DNA from: Dehalococcoidia bacterium
GTDB lineage: Bacteria; Chloroflexota; Dehalococcoidia; GIF9; UBA5629
DNA: 37,602 bases
Assembly: GCA_016783155.1 (NCBI GenBank)
Contig: JADHXB010000004.1
Location: 1 to 37,602 of the forward strand
Reading direction: 5' to 3'
Part shown: in pieces, positions 2,871 to 30,532 of the stretch
Numbering within the stretch: position 1 is the stretch's first letter
Layout: each line of letters begins with the position of its first letter
Position numbers and translations under genes: made by a program
Notes under the pieces: generated by a model
Seen by the model: only the letters and a program-made list of their open reading frames with translations
Databases searched by the model: none
Told to the model about the DNA's origin: nothing

Positions 2871-3026
2871 CATCATTGCGAGGAGCAGGATTCTTCACTT
2901 ATACTTGGAACATGCCCCGCAATCTCGATGGGGCTATCCCCATACTGTCATCGCGAGGTACGGAGTGCCGTGGCGATCTCGGTTGGGAATGGGTAGGGAG
3001 ATTGACACACTTCGCTCGCAATGACA
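2871..3026. repeat. Dispersed REP/MITE-like repeat (CATTGCGAGG...GGCGATCTC...TTCGCTCGCAATGACA)
   Basis: Terminal inverted-repeat-like words shared with other copies in the window. Confidence 0.6.
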
Positions 3027-22568: not shown

Positions 22569-24146
22569 TTACCCCAGTATTTTGTCCACCTCTTCTGCAT
22601 CCAGGTCTGAGACAAGAGGAATACCGCTAACTTTTGCGGCTTCTGGAGTCAGGGCAGCGATGTCATTACGAGTTATGTGCTCAAGTGCAAACTTGCGACC
22701 TCCGGCCATAAGCTGGCGTAGACCTTGGGCAAGTCGCTCGTAGTAAGTATAGAGTCCGATGGCTGCGGTGGGAATCTTCTCATAATCTTTCCCGTACTCT
22801 CTTTTCAGGCCCTCAGCAGTAACAAAGATAGACTCCCTTGTATTGCCGAATCGCTGCAGGTAAATGGGGAGTTGTCCACCGTTTATTGCTTCACCAATAG
22901 TCTTACCGACCATGGCTGCGGCAAGAGGTGCCCTTGCCATGGCTATTGCCTTTACATAAGGGGCGCATAGTGCAAAACCTTTAAATATCTGGTCTTCCAG
23001 AATAAATCCACCAGCAAGTACAATGTCAGGCACATACTCGCCTTTTGCTGTTAAACGGTTGCAGCACTTATAGAGTACTGACCACAGTTCGATACCAGGT
23101 ACACCCCACTCGTTCATCATACGCCACGGGCTCATGCCAGTACCGCCTCCTGCGGCGTCAACAGTGAGGTAGTCGATTTTTGCCATCGAGGAGAACTTGA
23201 CTGCCCGAGCCAGGTCTGCAGGCCTATAGGCACCGGTCTTCAGCGATATGTATTTGGCACCGGCTTTCCGCAGCCGGCTAACAGTGTCGAGGAAGCCCTC
23301 TTCAGTAACCATACCCACACGCGAGTGCCTCTCGAACTCGGTAAAGACGCCGCGCTTGAACTCGTCTATTACAGCAGGGTCAAGCGGGTCGGGAAGAACA
23401 ACATAGCCTCGTTTCTTAAGCAGTTGTGCTTTTTCAAGGTTCTTGATTTTGACCTCACCGCCTATGTCCTTGGCTCCCTGTCCCCATTTCAACTCCACCA
23501 CTTCAACCCCAAGTTTCTCTATGGCATACTCCAGCACACCGAGGCGGCCGTCTTCAACATTCGACTGCACAACAATGGCTCCATAGCCATCGCGCTGCCA
23601 TTCCTGGAAGGTTTTTACACGCCACTCAAGTTCAGGCGAGCGGACGATCCTCCCCTTCTCTATAATTGAGTCGTTATCCATTCCGCACACATTCTCGCCG
23701 ATGGTAAGCGGCGTTCCTGTTAGTGCTGAACCGATGGCTAAGCCTTCCCAGTTCTGCTTGGCGATATTAGTCGAACCAAGACCGGCAATTACCAGCGGCA
23801 GACGCAACTTGATTCCACCGTTTTGCCCCAGCCTCGTCTCAAGGTTAACATTCGGGAAAATAGCTTTGTCGGAGTCCTCCTCTATACCGACGGCGCCAAC
23901 GGCTGTTCCCATTATATTGAAATGGGACAGGTCGATGGGGTAGGCTTTTTGTGACGCGGTGGTAATGATGCCAAATGGTTGTGGGTAGATGACCTCATGA
24001 CCGCGGTAGGCGCTCTTGCCAATCTCGCACATACCTGTGCAGCCTTCCACACAGGTGACACACATCCCGCTTATCGGACACCAATCGCCGCCTGTCCTGT
24101 TTTTGGTCAGCGTTGCGGCTGTTGCATTGTACCTGGTTAATGTCAT
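22569..24146 (-). CDS. FMN-binding glutamate-synthase-domain (GltB central domain-like) protein, no glutaminase domain
   Basis: LTVDAAGGGTGMSPWRMMNEWGVP...ISLKTGAYRPADLARAVKF; N-terminal Cys cluster CPISGMCVTCVEGCTGMC; RBS aggaggt upstream. Confidence 0.85.
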   Translation of the reverse strand: MTLTRYNATAATLTKNRTGGDWCPISGMCVTCVEGCTGMCEIGKSAYRGHEVIYPQPFGIITTASQKAYPIDLSHFNIMGTAVGAVGIEEDSDKAIFPNVNLETRLGQNGGIKLRLPLVIAGLGSTNIAKQNWEGLAIGSALTGTPLTIGENVCGMDNDSIIEKGRIVRSPELEWRVKTFQEWQRDGYGAIVVQSNVEDGRLGVLEYAIEKLGVEVVELKWGQGAKDIGGEVKIKNLEKAQLLKKRGYVVLPDPLDPAVIDEFKRGVFTEFERHSRVGMVTEEGFLDTVSRLRKAGAKYISLKTGAYRPADLARAVKFSSMAKIDYLTVDAAGGGTGMSPWRMMNEWGVPGIELWSVLYKCCNRLTAKGEYVPDIVLAGGFILEDQIFKGFALCAPYVKAIAMARAPLAAAMVGKTIGEAINGGQLPIYLQRFGNTRESIFVTAEGLKREYGKDYEKIPTAAIGLYTYYERLAQGLRQLMAGGRKFALEHITRNDIAALTPEAAKVSGIPLVSDLDAEEVDKILG

Positions 24147-24201
24147 TTTTAAACCTCCTTTTAACCCTTTCTCGGTTGTTTTATATTTGGATGTATGTTT
24201 G

Positions 24202-24867
24202 CTAGTAAACCTTATGACCTTGCATGCCGACACTCTCCGAGCAGCCGGTGCATATAGGGCAAGTCTCCACAGGTGCCAGGTTCTGGCATCCTCCACAGAG
24301 GCCATCTATGAGATTGCCTGCGGTACAAGCTCGTTCGCAAACCGGGCATATCCACTCACAACCGCCGCAGTTGCGGCATTCTTCGGGAGTGACATCGAAT
24401 GCGGTTGATACTTTCCGCGAAGTACCGCGGCCGATGAATCCAATGCCTCCAGACTGCATCTGTTCTTTGCAGTAGCGCACGCAAAGCCCGCAGAGTATAC
24501 AACCCCTGTCTTTTATCTTGAAGCGAATTTTGTTGATGCCCATGTTTGAAGCCATATCTTGTAGTGTTTTAGAGTTTGGGCATGAAGCGAGCAACAGCTC
24601 GACGATAAGCTTACGCGCTTTCCTTACCCTCTCTGAATTCGTAAGAATCACCTGCCCCTGCTCCACTGGCAGGGTACAGGACGCTTCCAGTGATGAGCGA
24701 TTGTTTTTCACCACCTCAACCATGCAGACACGACAGGCACCATAGGGGCTGAGACCTGGATAATAACAGAGAGTCGGGATGACAATACCCATTTCTCCTG
24801 CTGCTTCGAGAACTGTTGTTCCCTCCACTGTCCTTATTTTTGTTCCATCGATAGTTAATTCAACCAT
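24202..24867 (-). CDS. NuoG N-terminal/HoxU/HydC-like iron-sulfur subunit
   Basis: CYYPGLSPYGACRVCMVEV 2Fe-2S motif; CILCGLCVRYCKE; Cys-rich C-terminal tail. Confidence 0.85.
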   Translation of the reverse strand: MVELTIDGTKIRTVEGTTVLEAAGEMGIVIPTLCYYPGLSPYGACRVCMVEVVKNNRSSLEASCTLPVEQGQVILTNSERVRKARKLIVELLLASCPNSKTLQDMASNMGINKIRFKIKDRGCILCGLCVRYCKEQMQSGGIGFIGRGTSRKVSTAFDVTPEECRNCGGCEWICPVCERACTAGNLIDGLCGGCQNLAPVETCPICTGCSESVGMQGHKVY

Positions 24868-24879
24868 GATTTTCCCTCT

Positions 24880-26739
24880 TTATGATACTGTCACTGCGTC
24901 GAACTTACAGTTGTCGCGGCAAAGCCCGCACTTGATACACTTCTCCTGGTCGATATGGTGTACCTCTTTCTTCTCCCCTGATATTGCTCCCTGTGGACAT
25001 TCCCTGGCGCACACTCTACAGCCGTTACACTTCTCGCCATCGATGGTGAAGGTAATAAGCTCCTTGCAGACACCGGCGGGGCAGCGTTTCTCTTTTATGT
25101 GGGCATCATATTCATCACGAAAATATCTGATGGTGGAAAGGACAGGATTGGCGGCGGTACTGCCGAGCCCGCACAATGAGGTCTCCTGCATAACATCTCC
25201 CAGCTCCTCCAGCAGTTCAACATCCTCCTCCTTGCCTCGCCCCTCCGTGATATCGGTCAGAATATCCAGCATTCTGTCCAGCCCCTCGCGGCAGGGGATA
25301 CACTTGCCGCATGATTCTTCGGTGAGGAAGCTGATAAAGTACTTAGCCACGTCCACCATGCAGGTGCCCTCATCCATGACTATCATACCGCCTGAGCCCA
25401 TCATCGACCCCACCTTGGCCAACCTGTCGAAGTCGACAGATATGTCAACAAGGCTCTTGGGAATACAACCACCCGATGGCCCGCCGGTCTGAACGGCTTT
25501 AAATTCCCTGCCGCCGGGGATGCCCCCACCGATGTCGTATATCATTTCCCGTATACTTATACCCATCGGCACCTCAACGAGGCCCGTGTTGTTTATCTTA
25601 CCCACCAGTGAGAATATCTTGGTGCCTTTGCTGCCGTCGGTACCTATTTGGCGGTACCAGCCTGCGCCGCGGTTGATTATGATGGGCACGTTTGCCCAGG
25701 TTTCGACGTTATTAAGATTACTGGGCCGGCCGTAAAGCCCTCGCTCGGTGCTGTGAATATGCTTGAAGCGAGGCTCGCCTATCCTGCCCTCCAGTGATGC
25801 CATCAGGGCTGTTGATTCTCCGCAGACGAAGGCACCGCCACCCTTGGTGATTTTGATATCAAAGCGGAAACCAGAGCCAAGTATGTCTTCGCCGAGAAAG
25901 CCATATTCTCTTGCTTGTTCCAGGGCAATGGCCAGATTCTGTGCAGCCAGCGGGTATTCATGGCGGATATAGACATAACCTTCGTGAGAGTCTATGGCAT
26001 AGGCACCGATAATCATTCCTTCAATGATGCTGTGAGGATTGCCTTCGACAAGGCTTCGGTCCATGTAAGCACCGGGGTCGCCTTCATCGGCGTTACAGAT
26101 GACGTAGCGGATGCCGTCCCGGGCTGGAGCATTGCGGCAGGACTCCCACTTTACGCCGGTGGGGAAACCGCCACCACCCCGACCTCGCAGATTTGACTCT
26201 TTGACCTCATCCAGCACCTGCTGGGGTGTCATTTCAAAAAGTGCCTTGACCAGGGCACTGTAACCGCCCAGAGCAATGTAGTCATCTATGTTATTGGGTG
26301 CAATGAACCTGTTATTGCCAAGTATTAGTCTATTCTGCTTATTGTAGAAGGGTATATCTTGCTCGTGGATAATGTTTTTACCAGTCGAGAAATCATGGTA
26401 GAGAAGCCTTTCAACGACATTTTTCTTGATTACCGATTCAGAGATTATCTCTGGAATGTCAGCCGGGGTAACATGTTGATAGAGAATTCCTTCGGGATAT
26501 ATGAGGACAACGGGCTCTATTTCGCAGAAGCCGTGACAGCCCGTTGTTCTAACGTCAACCGAGTCCTTAAGGTTAAAGTCACTAATTGTCTGGTAGATGG
26601 CTCGTGCCACGTCTGCGGCACCACGTGCCAGTCCACACGTCCCGACGCTGGTGATAATGCAAGTACGATCCGAGTTGCGCTGGCTTATAATCCGGTCTCG
26701 CAGTTGTTCTGATTCAAGTGCCGACCCTAATCTCATCAT
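24880..26739 (-). CDS. NuoF/HydB/HndC-like NADH-binding flavoprotein with N-terminal 2Fe-2S and C-terminal ferredoxin domain
   Basis: LRGRGGGGFPTGVKWESC; ESCGKCIPCREG; CNGCRVCARECPQ, CIKCGLCRDNCKF. Confidence 0.95.
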   Translation of the reverse strand: MMRLGSALESEQLRDRIISQRNSDRTCIITSVGTCGLARGAADVARAIYQTISDFNLKDSVDVRTTGCHGFCEIEPVVLIYPEGILYQHVTPADIPEIISESVIKKNVVERLLYHDFSTGKNIIHEQDIPFYNKQNRLILGNNRFIAPNNIDDYIALGGYSALVKALFEMTPQQVLDEVKESNLRGRGGGGFPTGVKWESCRNAPARDGIRYVICNADEGDPGAYMDRSLVEGNPHSIIEGMIIGAYAIDSHEGYVYIRHEYPLAAQNLAIALEQAREYGFLGEDILGSGFRFDIKITKGGGAFVCGESTALMASLEGRIGEPRFKHIHSTERGLYGRPSNLNNVETWANVPIIINRGAGWYRQIGTDGSKGTKIFSLVGKINNTGLVEVPMGISIREMIYDIGGGIPGGREFKAVQTGGPSGGCIPKSLVDISVDFDRLAKVGSMMGSGGMIVMDEGTCMVDVAKYFISFLTEESCGKCIPCREGLDRMLDILTDITEGRGKEEDVELLEELGDVMQETSLCGLGSTAANPVLSTIRYFRDEYDAHIKEKRCPAGVCKELITFTIDGEKCNGCRVCARECPQGAISGEKKEVHHIDQEKCIKCGLCRDNCKFDAVTVS

Positions 26740-27217
26740 GTCTCCTGCTTCTTGTCGCTTTTTTGTAATCGCTTAATATTTTCTTTATTTTCTTTGGGCT
26801 CATTTCCCCGTGGTATTCTTCGCCCACCACCATGATAGGTCCAAGGGCGCATGCCCCGAGGCAGTTGACTGTCTCCAGCGTAAACATCATGTCCTCAGTT
26901 GTTTCACCTGCCTCGATACCGAGCTGTCTTTTTACCTCGTCGAGTGCCGGTTGAGCACCCCGCACATGGCAGGCAGTGCCGACACAGAGTTTGATCAGGT
27001 GCTCCCCACGAGGCTTCAGGCTGAACGCCTTAAAAAAGGTGGCTACGCCATAGACCTGTATCAGGGGCAGTTCCAGGTTTTTGGCTACCACCCTTAGTGC
27101 AGTTTCCGGCAGGTAGTGATATTCGGACTGTATATCCTGGAGTATGGCGATGACGCTATCATGGTTGCCGCCATATTTGTTAATTATGACTTCAACTACA
27201 TCACATTCATTCTTCAT
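26714..27217 (-). CDS. NuoE/HndA-like thioredoxin-fold 2Fe-2S subunit
   Basis: LCVGTACHVRGAQ...VNCLGACALGPIMVV; overlaps nuoF-like start. Confidence 0.95.
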   Translation of the reverse strand: MKNECDVVEVIINKYGGNHDSVIAILQDIQSEYHYLPETALRVVAKNLELPLIQVYGVATFFKAFSLKPRGEHLIKLCVGTACHVRGAQPALDEVKRQLGIEAGETTEDMMFTLETVNCLGACALGPIMVVGEEYHGEMSPKKIKKILSDYKKATRSRRHDEIRVGT

Positions 27218-27260
27218 AGCCTGACTACCTTTCTCTAACTCTCCTCGTAGAAGTCGCTGA

Positions 27261-28031
27261 CTATTCTTTTACCGGTATGCCTCTCTCCCTGAGGTATGAT
27301 TTTGCCTGTGGTATGGTTATCTCCCCAAAGTGAAAGATGGAAGCCGCCAGAACTGCTGAAGCTTTGGCGATGGCTACGGCTTCGTAAAGGTGCTCCAATT
27401 TGCCGGCGCCGCCTGAAGCTGTGACCGGTATACTTACGGCTTCTGCAACGGCCTTGGTCATCTCCAAATCATATCCTTCCTTGGTGCCATCGGCATCCTT
27501 ACTGGTGAGCAGAATCTCCCCGGCACCCAATTCCTCCATCTTCTTTGCCCACTGGACGATGTCCAGCCCTGTCGATTCCATGCCGCTCTTAACCACTACC
27601 TCCAATCTGGGGAGACGGCTATTCGGCGGATTTTTGATGCCGTCGATGGCAACAACGAGCCTTTGCTTGCCGAACTTCTCGGAGGCTTCCTTTACCAGGT
27701 CGGGATTTCTTACAGCAGTGGTATTGATGGAGACTTTGCTTACGCCGAGGTCAAATAAATCTTTCATGTCTTTGGTGTTTCTGATGCCGCCGCCTACAGC
27801 GAAGGGGATGGTGACTTTCTCTGCCACTCTCTTGACCCATTCCAGTCTTGTTCCCCTGCCCTCGGCACTGGCCATAATATCGAGGAATACCAGCTCATCC
27901 GCGCCTTCCCGGCAATAGGCTTCTGCGGCCTCTACCGGGTCGCGGGCATCCCTGAGGTTGACGAACTTTATCCCTTTGACCACCCTGCCATCTTTGACAT
28001 CCAGACATGGTATGACTTTTATCTCTTTCAA
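27261..28031 (-). CDS. hisF: Imidazole glycerol phosphate synthase cyclase subunit HisF
   Basis: MKEIKVIPCLDVKDGRVVKGIKF...IPVTASGGAGKLEHL. Confidence 0.93.
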   Translation of the reverse strand: MKEIKVIPCLDVKDGRVVKGIKFVNLRDARDPVEAAEAYCREGADELVFLDIMASAEGRGTRLEWVKRVAEKVTIPFAVGGGIRNTKDMKDLFDLGVSKVSINTTAVRNPDLVKEASEKFGKQRLVVAIDGIKNPPNSRLPRLEVVVKSGMESTGLDIVQWAKKMEELGAGEILLTSKDADGTKEGYDLEMTKAVAEAVSIPVTASGGAGKLEHLYEAVAIAKASAVLAASIFHFGEITIPQAKSYLRERGIPVKE

Positions 28032-29029
28032 CTTGCAATCTCCTGAAACCTCTTTAATCTCTGATATTCTAAGACGGTGCTCATGGCGTAGTTTTCCGCT
28101 TCTATGCCGGCTTCTTCAGCGGCGGCTATCGGGTTTAAGCCTCCGATGAGTATCATTCCAATTCTGTTGAGTTCCATAGGCATCTCACATACCGGCTCGC
28201 TGGTGTTGCCCATAACCATAAGCCCTCCTAAGCCGGCATCCTTCAATTTAGCCACGACATTTTCAGCTATGGGACGACACAAGGCTGGTATTTCGCGGAA
28301 ATTAGCCAGTATTTTGCCATTGCCCGTTCTGGCTGCGTCCCTTACCGAGGTCATCCTGGCTCTGATAAAAACCTCGGAGGGGTCTAGCGAGGAACCGGCA
28401 TAATGAATGAGCTCCACGAAGCGAAGTGGTTCGTGGTTTCGAATCTGTAGTATGCCGCCGAATCGGGAGTCCATGGGAACGCCGGCTTTGAGTAGCGTAC
28501 CGTTTATCACGATGCTGCAAACGGTTGCCAATGCTGTCTTACCTGAATGTACGATTAACTCGCCCAACTGTTCTCCCTCATGAGCAACAGCCACCAAATC
28601 GCTCACGCAAATCCCGGCAGCGAAGACTGGCTTCATTGCCTGGAGTGCTTTTTCAAACTTTTCCTTTGGGAAAAAGGAGACGTTCACTGGAACCAAGCCG
28701 GTGCCTTTCTCCCAATCGAAGTCGGTGCGAAGAGCGAGCAATTCGATTCTGGCTATGGCGAACCCCACCTTATCTCTAACCAGTGCGTTACCCAGTTCTT
28801 CAACCCCCGGTTCGGTGATTAACCGGCCATCCCGGCTGATAAGTCGGGTTAGCCCACGTCCATCCATCAGTTTCAGGTGGTATCTAACTGCCCTTTCGCC
28901 CAGGTAAACGCCGTGGTCCTTCAAAAGTCGGGCGATGACCCTGGCACCCAGAGGCTGCGGGGAATCGTTCAGTATTTTAAGTATGAGGTGCTCTTTTCGC
29001 TCAACCTCTTGTGTTTCAACACCTATCAC
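28028..29029 (-). CDS. NrpR-like (DUF128) transcriptional regulator with N-terminal winged helix
   Basis: ILKILNDSPQPLGARVIARLLKDHGVYLGERAVRYHLKLMDGRGLT plus one NrpR domain; GTG start; 4-nt overlap with hisF. Confidence 0.85.
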   Translation of the reverse strand: MIGVETQEVERKEHLILKILNDSPQPLGARVIARLLKDHGVYLGERAVRYHLKLMDGRGLTRLISRDGRLITEPGVEELGNALVRDKVGFAIARIELLALRTDFDWEKGTGLVPVNVSFFPKEKFEKALQAMKPVFAAGICVSDLVAVAHEGEQLGELIVHSGKTALATVCSIVINGTLLKAGVPMDSRFGGILQIRNHEPLRFVELIHYAGSSLDPSEVFIRARMTSVRDAARTGNGKILANFREIPALCRPIAENVVAKLKDAGLGGLMVMGNTSEPVCEMPMELNRIGMILIGGLNPIAAAEEAGIEAENYAMSTVLEYQRLKRFQEIAS

Positions 29030-29062
29030 AATAAGCTCTTAAAGTTGATATTTTAGGCAGTA

Positions 29063-29076
29063 GGCAACCGTTTGCC
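29063..29076 (-). promoter_or_regulatory. Candidate NrpR-like operator GGCA-N6-TGCC
   Basis: GGCAACCGTTTGCC, 14-bp near-perfect palindrome just downstream of the promoter. Confidence 0.6.
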
Positions 29077-29092
29077 GATTAAACAAATAGCT

Positions 29093-29121
29093 ATTATATA
29101 GGTGGTTGATAATCTTGTCAA
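29093..29121 (-). promoter_or_regulatory. Consensus promoter TTGACA-N17-TATAAT for the nrpR-like operon
   Basis: Minus strand: -35 at 29121-29116, -10 at 29098-29093, 17-nt spacer. Confidence 0.85.
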
Positions 29122-29160
29122 TCTCCCTTCAAGTCTTAAGTTGCTCAACCACTCCCCCAC

Positions 29161-29225
29161 GTCATTGCGAGCGAAGCGTGGCAATCTCTGGGATTGCTTC
29201 GGGGCTTACGCCCCTCGCACTGACA
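29161..29225. repeat. REP/MITE-like repeat copy
   Basis: GTCATTGCGAGCGAAGCGTGGCAATCTC...CCCCTCGCACTGACA. Confidence 0.7.
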
Positions 29226-29314
29226 AGTAAATGACCCTCTCTCTTGACTGTGATTACATCAGAAAGTAATATTAGTTGGAATCCAGCCATTCATTAATTC
29301 GGGACGGAGGTAAT

Positions 29315-30532
29315 ATGTTAGCTCTGGAGGGAATCAAGGTTTTGGATCTTACTCATCTGGCACCTGGTGGTCTATGTACTATGATTTTGGGTGACCTTGG
29401 AGCTGATGTGATTAAAGTTGAGGCACTGCCTGGTGTTGGTGGGCGTGGTGCTGTAATAGGACTGTCGCCGATGGGGGAGGAGGGGAGAAGGGAAGCTGCT
29501 TTTGATGCATTAAGCCGCAACAAGAGGAGTATCGGGCTAAATCTCAAGTCTGACAAAGGCCGTGACATATTCTACCAGTTGGCGCAGACAGCCGATGTTG
29601 TTGTCGAAGGCTTCAGGCCGGGTGTGGTCAAGCGTTTGGGCGTGGACTATGAGAAGATAAGGTCGATTAATCCCGGGATTATCTATTGCTCCCTCAGCGG
29701 CTACGGGCAGGACGGTCCGTATAGTAATCGCTCCGGGCACGATGTAAACTATATATCAATGGCCGGTGCTCTTAGCCTCATTGGTTCTACAGACCGTCCG
29801 CCGGTCGTTCCTCTAAACTTACTGGCTGACTTTGCTGGTGCCTCTTTGCATGGCGTTATGGGCATACTAGCCGCTCTGGTGGCTAGGGGCAAAACGGGTA
29901 GAGGACAACACGTGGATATAGCCTATACAGATGGGGTAATAACCCTTCTGAGCTGGTTTGTTAGCAATTACTTTTCTAGAGGCATTATGTTCAATAGAGG
30001 TGAAACCTGGCTTCATGGTGCTTATCCCTATTATGGCGTGTATGAAGCTAAGGATGGTAAATATGTCAGCATCGGCTGTCTTGAACCCTGGTTTTGGGAA
30101 AATCTATGTCGTGCTTTGGGCAAGGAAGAGTATATTTCTTACTGTATTTCGCCAGAGCATTTTCTCCACAAACCCGAAGGCGAGAAATGGGAGGAAATCT
30201 CTTCCTGCCTAAAGCAAGTCTTTTTGACCAGGACCAGGGATGAGTGGTTTGACTTTCTTATTGATAAGGATGTGCCAGTGGGTAAAGTCTATACCTTTGA
30301 TGAAGTGTTCAATGACCCGCAGGTGCTTCACCGCCAAATGGTTTTAGAGATAGACCATCCGACTCTGGGAAAGGTGAAACACCCGGGCATTGCCATCAAG
30401 CTGTCCGAGACTCCGGGCAAGGTGAGGAGCCTGGCACCTATCTTCGGCGAGCATACTGATGAGATATTGCGTGAATTAAGCTATAGTAAGTCGCAAATCG
30501 AAGAGTTGCGTCAATCTGACATAATAGGCTAA
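29315..30532 (+). CDS. CaiB/BaiF-type (class III) CoA-transferase
   Basis: LEGIKVLDLTHLAPGGLCTMILGDLGADVIKVE...GRGQHVDIAYTDGV; RBS ggaggtaat. Confidence 0.93.
   Translation: MLALEGIKVLDLTHLAPGGLCTMILGDLGADVIKVEALPGVGGRGAVIGLSPMGEEGRREAAFDALSRNKRSIGLNLKSDKGRDIFYQLAQTADVVVEGFRPGVVKRLGVDYEKIRSINPGIIYCSLSGYGQDGPYSNRSGHDVNYISMAGALSLIGSTDRPPVVPLNLLADFAGASLHGVMGILAALVARGKTGRGQHVDIAYTDGVITLLSWFVSNYFSRGIMFNRGETWLHGAYPYYGVYEAKDGKYVSIGCLEPWFWENLCRALGKEEYISYCISPEHFLHKPEGEKWEEISSCLKQVFLTRTRDEWFDFLIDKDVPVGKVYTFDEVFNDPQVLHRQMVLEIDHPTLGKVKHPGIAIKLSETPGKVRSLAPIFGEHTDEILRELSYSKSQIEELRQSDIIG

Follow-up and report, generated by a model that had tools for sequence, protein, structure and literature searches.

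A predicted NrpR-type operator at the sigma70 promoter of a Dehalococcoidia nrpR gene and at glutamate synthase operons

Introduction

Archaeal NrpR is found with a two-NRD architecture (NRD, NrpR regulatory domain), as in Methanococcus maripaludis, and NrpRI of Methanosarcina mazei carries one helix-turn-helix (HTH) domain and one NRD, an arrangement that the bacterial protein described here resembles. The archaeal operator is GGAAN6TTCC (PMC2723118), 2-oxoglutarate causes NrpR to dissociate from DNA (PMC11957540), and expression of archaeal nrpR is reportedly not under nitrogen regulation (PMC9765008). Bacterial homologues from Dehalococcoides (COG1693), probably acquired by lateral transfer, have been on record since 2007 (PMC1852104). 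In the literature searched, which leaves most subscription journals outside, we found no report of an operator or regulon for a bacterial NrpR. Nitrogen sensing in Dehalococcoidia and kindred anaerobes, organohalide respirers among them, seems little described in the searchable literature, and a defined operator with a list of targets makes it testable.

Results

Promoter and palindrome upstream of nrpR

The window, that is, the whole 37,602-nt stretch of Dehalococcoidia DNA that was analysed, encodes a protein with the winged HTH and the NrpR regulatory domain of the NrpR family (Table 1), residues 91-331 of which align with MJ0159, a solved NrpR-like protein. A first-pass annotation had placed a perfect sigma70 promoter, TTGACA-N17-TATAAT (29121-29093), ahead of this gene, and that promoter proved to be the only 12/12 match in 28900-29350. 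The GGCA-N6-TGCC palindrome reported about 16 nt past the -10 on the minus strand was likewise found, as GGCAAACGGTTGCC at 29076-29063. The minus-strand order is TTGACA-AGATTATCAACCACCTA-TATAAT-AGCTATTTGTTTAATC-GGCAAACGGTTGCC-TACTGCC, with gaps of 16 nt between the -10 and GGCAAACGGTTGCC and of 34 nt between GGCAAACGGTTGCC and the nrpR GTG (29029). The conserved unit is longer than the 14-nt core and reads GGCAAAC-GGTTGCC-TACTGCC (29076-29056), the third half-site keeping the 7-bp spacing.

Table 1. Predicted features of the nrpR locus in the window.
Feature	Position	Strand	Basis
-35 hexamer TTGACA	29116..29121	minus	sole 12/12 sigma70 match in 28900-29350
-10 hexamer TATAAT, 17-nt spacer	29093..29098	minus	sole 12/12 sigma70 match in 28900-29350
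Predicted NrpR-type operator core GGCAAACGGTTGCC (GGNAA-N4-TTNCC)	29063..29076	minus	motif search and footprinting
Third half-site heptad TACTGCC, directly after core	29056..29062	minus	NNNTNCC here in 31/63 NrpR sites
NrpR-type repressor, HTH_12 and one NRD (PF01995), GTG start	28028..29029	minus	NRD 1.8e-84, HTH 5.9e-20; 3nek_A 4.1e-24
HisF, overlaps nrpR stop, same operon	27261..28031	minus	TIGR00735 above cut-off
NuoE/HoxE-like 2Fe-2S subunit	26714..27217	minus	domain search
NuoF-like flavoprotein with extra 4Fe-4S domains	24880..26739	minus	domain search
NuoG/HydA-N-like ferredoxin subunit	24202..24867	minus	domain search
FMN glutamate synthase-domain protein, amidotransferase domain not found	22569..24305	minus	Glu_synthase, 3.1e-11

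The gene set at 22569-28031, with its FMN glutamate synthase-domain and NuoE/NuoF/NuoG-like products, is also present in two other loci (L012, L033) and possibly encodes a glutamate-forming or transhydrogenase complex that would be linked to NADH and might bifurcate electrons. On the other side of the nrpR promoter, before the CaiB gene, lies a repeat, TCATTGCGAGCGAAGCGTGGCAATC (29162-29186), with a second copy at 3000-3024 on the minus strand (2 mismatches); two copies in the window, where shuffles lead one to expect none, look like a dispersed intergenic repeat.

Chance occurrence of the palindrome

A chance palindrome in AT-rich intergenic DNA would be in keeping with the three copies of GGCA-N6-TGCC in the window (0.64 expected), and the perfect form, GGCAA-N4-TTGCC, also occurs three times in the window's genome (1.45 Mb, 77% complete), where base counting predicts about 1.4. 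Because these counts are not rare, the palindrome by itself is weak evidence, and its significance comes from phylogenetic footprinting, promoter geometry and a second genomic site. The three perfect genomic copies are the nrpR operator, one heading a glutamate synthase operon, and one (C14:1858) inside a DprA-like ORF (dprA), which was treated as chance. A near-copy within the nrpR coding sequence, TGCAAACGGTTGCC (28516-28529), was also set aside, since the conserved peptide LATVCS explains it and synonymous codons break the motif in close relatives.

Conservation of the site at bacterial nrpR genes

Phylogenetic footprinting, a check proposed in the first-pass annotation, revealed a site that two phyla have kept in front of their nrpR genes. 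It covered 64 loci from named genomes of Dehalococcoidia/Chloroflexi and Smithella-type Desulfobacterota, whose sequences are related and hence not independent. The Dehalococcoidia upstream regions read TTGACA-N17-TATAAT-AGGCAAACGGTTGCCTAYTGCC, and those of Smithella read TTGACA...TACGGCAAACGATTGCCGATTGCC. A class-wide search of 198 genomes from 139 genera detected NrpR itself in 73 genomes and 54 genera. Of 123 distinct bacterial NrpR genes, 63 had an exact GGNAA-N4-TTNCC in the 100 nt upstream, as against a mean of 0.19 and a maximum of 2 in dinucleotide shuffles, and the number rose to 65 with a 200-nt limit; these sites occur in both Dehalococcoidia and Smithella-type Desulfobacterota. Matrix scores of at least 16 numbered 71 in 0.91 Mb and one in a Markov control. 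With conservation so far above the shuffles, and with the glutamate synthase operon comparison below, the chance explanation is already refuted, and we give it practically no weight.

In the NrpR loci the site preceded 53 of the 740 ORFs. NrpR accounts for 48 of these 53, and of the five that remain, four are HisF, a HisH-like gene or the head gene of a glutamate synthase operon. Weaker matches outside nrpR in 25 genomes fell mostly within coding sequence, and a one-mismatch search of Smithella genomes returned too many matches to read. About half of the NrpR genes are without an exact site nearby, several of them inside operons, which counts against the operator reading.

Base 3 is the main variable position of the operator (C 59%, A 24%, T 16%), so the bacterial sites include the GGAA-N6-TTCC form (L024, L030) and the GGTA-N6-TACC form (L009, L172, L193); Dehalococcoides-like genomes have GGCAA-N4-TTGCC ahead of NrpR (L190, L196, L197). 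The contrast between the Methanococcus and Methanosarcina forms is therefore softer than had been stated. By sequence comparison, the GGNA-N6-TNCC pattern of the NrpR family is present at the putatively regulated promoters. Divergent NrpR paralogue pairs were seen in three loci (L011, L026, L209), the partners being about 40% and 64-73% identical to the window protein, and tandem operators lie upstream of one partner in L026 and L209.

Upstream of 49 of 60 NrpR sites there was a sigma70 match scoring 9/12 or better, and the operator mostly started 1-3 nt past the -10, which places it over the expected start site. The 16-nt distance in the window is unusual (1 nt in close relatives) and counts against the operator reading, yet the site is still inside the initial transcribed region. 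The NNNTNCC half-site followed the core in 31 of 63 NrpR sites, the window included, and at glutamate synthase operons many operators consist of four half-sites placed every 7 bp, such as GGTATAC-GGCAAGC-GGTTGCC-GTATACC.

The site at glutamate synthase operons

The window's genome has one further perfect site between genes (C10:5247, L068). It heads an operon for a 4Fe-4S protein, a HisH-type glutaminase, an NAD(P)H oxidoreductase, a class II amidotransferase, HisF and a glutamate synthase FMN domain; the operon's promoter reads TTGACA-N17-TAGCAT and leads into ATGGCATACGGCAA-N4-TTGCCGTATGCCAT with perfect 14-nt arms. The operator stood at the operon head in all six first-examined loci that have one (L068, L278-L282). 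A second nrpR and glnA belong to the operon, or to its continuation, in L278, L280 and L282, two of which (L278 and L282) have amtB-glnB there as well. HisH and HisF genes lie inside the glutamate synthase operon (L068:776-4722; L281; L282), with another HisF beside nrpR; their products may act in histidine synthesis or may supply glutamate synthase with ammonia.

Across genomes, the operator headed the glutamate synthase operon in 19 of 21 NrpR-positive loci and in none of five NrpR-negative genomes (Fisher p 3.2e-4, kinship ignored), a comparison weakened by the fact that three of those five are only 54-84% complete. The two exceptions (L284, L337) are Dehalococcoides-like, and one locus with its site at -196 (L335) was counted. 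Since the scoring matrix drew on nrpR sites alone, its use at these operons is independent. Against the operator reading, a weak GGCAGNTTTTTGCC is retained in two NrpR-negative genomes. In one 1,469,720-bp chromosome (G136), nrpR is preceded by the operator (L197) but the glutamate synthase operon (L283) is not. The operator-headed operons comprise the glutamate synthase operon, GDH and amtB-glnB-glnA, a predicted nitrogen-assimilation regulon, which may be larger in the window's genome since that genome is 77% complete. An operator-like GGTAAACGGTTTCC was also seen upstream of a FlpD/MvhD-type subunit gene (L107:1438) in an NrpR-positive genome (G021).

Operators are often inverted repeats of such a size, and the palindrome could belong to an unrelated regulator encoded elsewhere, its proximity to nrpR being incidental; we regard this as very improbable, because the site tracks nrpR across two phyla despite differing neighbours, is found with nrpR duplicates too (L004 and L111, from one genome; L026, L209) and is absent from the glutamate synthase operon of genomes that have no NrpR. 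Conservation at nrpR and co-occurrence at glutamate synthase operons together strongly support, as predictions from sequence, both the NrpR-type operator architecture and the autoregulation by the NrpR-like protein that had been proposed from the window.

Promoters without the site

The first-pass annotation had also named glnA, amtB, glnB and nif promoters as places to look. Among 19 NrpR-positive genomes, free-standing glnA and amtB promoters were without the site and are ruled out as direct targets; divergent pairs do have it, but on the side of nrpR. The genes glnA, amtB and glnB come under the operator where they are inside the glutamate synthase operon and not elsewhere. A strong site was also absent from the five nifH loci and three longer nif regions examined, G136 included, so that nif was not borne out as a target; the lack of a site here and at stand-alone glnA and amtB counts against the operator reading.

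Gene neighbourhood of NrpR

Neighbours of the 123 NrpR genes were HisF (43), GltS (36), GDH (34, of two types, confirmed by Pfam) and GlnA (12), and more rarely FAD oxidase (11), PII (7) and AmtB (6). Smithella loci are mostly nrpR-gdhA, and glnA is divergent from nrpR in three Dehalococcoidia loci (L018, L021, L056). The FAD oxidase, of the DAO family, is found within the nrpR operons of L009, L011, L024, L175, L177 and L178; it resembles L-2-hydroxyglutarate oxidase, and such an enzyme would presumably produce 2-oxoglutarate.

That HisF is the commonest neighbour, that HisF, HisH and NuoE/F genes occur in the operons and that the window operon has a NuoE/NuoF/ferredoxin module could mean that NrpR recognises the operator in response to a redox or histidine-pathway signal rather than nitrogen or 2-oxoglutarate. 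We consider this unlikely: HisF varies in presence and is directly replaced by GDH or GltS, Smithella nrpR-gdhA loci are without hisF, the common theme of the loci is 2-oxoglutarate/glutamate chemistry, and the NRD is homologous to the MJ0159 structure.

Discussion

The predicted operator, its promoter geometry, its conservation, its co-occurrence with NrpR and the genes downstream can all be read from the DNA. We put at roughly 0.85 the probability that the palindrome is the operator of the downstream NrpR-type repressor, an autoregulated repressor of glutamate synthesis acting at sigma70 promoters and presumably released by 2-oxoglutarate. Binding, repression and the role of 2-oxoglutarate as inducer are presumed by analogy with archaeal NrpR. 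When ammonia is plentiful, the repressor would sit on the heptad-spaced half-sites in the start region of its strong sigma70 promoter, occluding that promoter and so blocking its own operon (nrpR-hisF-nuoE-nuoF-fd-gltS-like), and it would also block the second, glutamate synthase operon (FeS-HisH-oxidoreductase-GATase-HisF-GltB2). When nitrogen is short, 2-oxoglutarate would accumulate and release the repressor, so that the capacity for glutamate synthesis and the amount of repressor would rise in step, a negative feedback. Occlusion, autoregulation and 2-oxoglutarate induction under nitrogen limitation would fit all the sequence evidence.

With somewhat less assurance, we think it probable that across much of Dehalococcoidia, and in syntrophs of the Smithella type, glutamate synthesis is under NrpR as a master repressor. 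The protein would be autoregulated and rewired from archaeal TATA/TFB to sigma70 promoters; its operators would have three or four half-sites spaced by 7 bp, and glutamate synthase/GDH, not nif, would form the core of its regulon. An "archaeal" repressor family would then recognise essentially the same DNA code at the sigma70 promoters of bacteria.

The window protein belongs to the same family as the Dehalococcoides homologues (COG1693). M. maripaludis NrpR shares with the bacterial system the NRD and HTH and GGNA-N6-TNCC at nitrogen assimilation promoters, and its GGAA-N6-TTCC operator is literally present at some bacterial sites. Its regulon takes in nif, glnK-amtB, glnA and molybdate transport, whereas the predicted bacterial one centres on glutamate synthase/GDH without nif; nif control in methanogens is not universal to the family, and the bacterial nif regions examined had no strong site. 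In methanogens the operator stands at a free-standing glnA or amtB promoter, whereas in the bacteria it is met there only on the nrpR side of divergent nrpR-glnA pairs. The bacterial version further differs from M. maripaludis NrpR in its sigma70 promoter, its single NRD and the operator on its own gene; since archaeal nrpR is reportedly not nitrogen-regulated (PMC9765008), the predicted self-operators would be a real difference. M. mazei NrpRI/NrpRII has in common with the bacteria the GGTA-N6-TACC-like sites; among the bacterial loci analysed no HTH-less partner came to light, and the bacterial operators add extra half-sites at 7-bp spacing.
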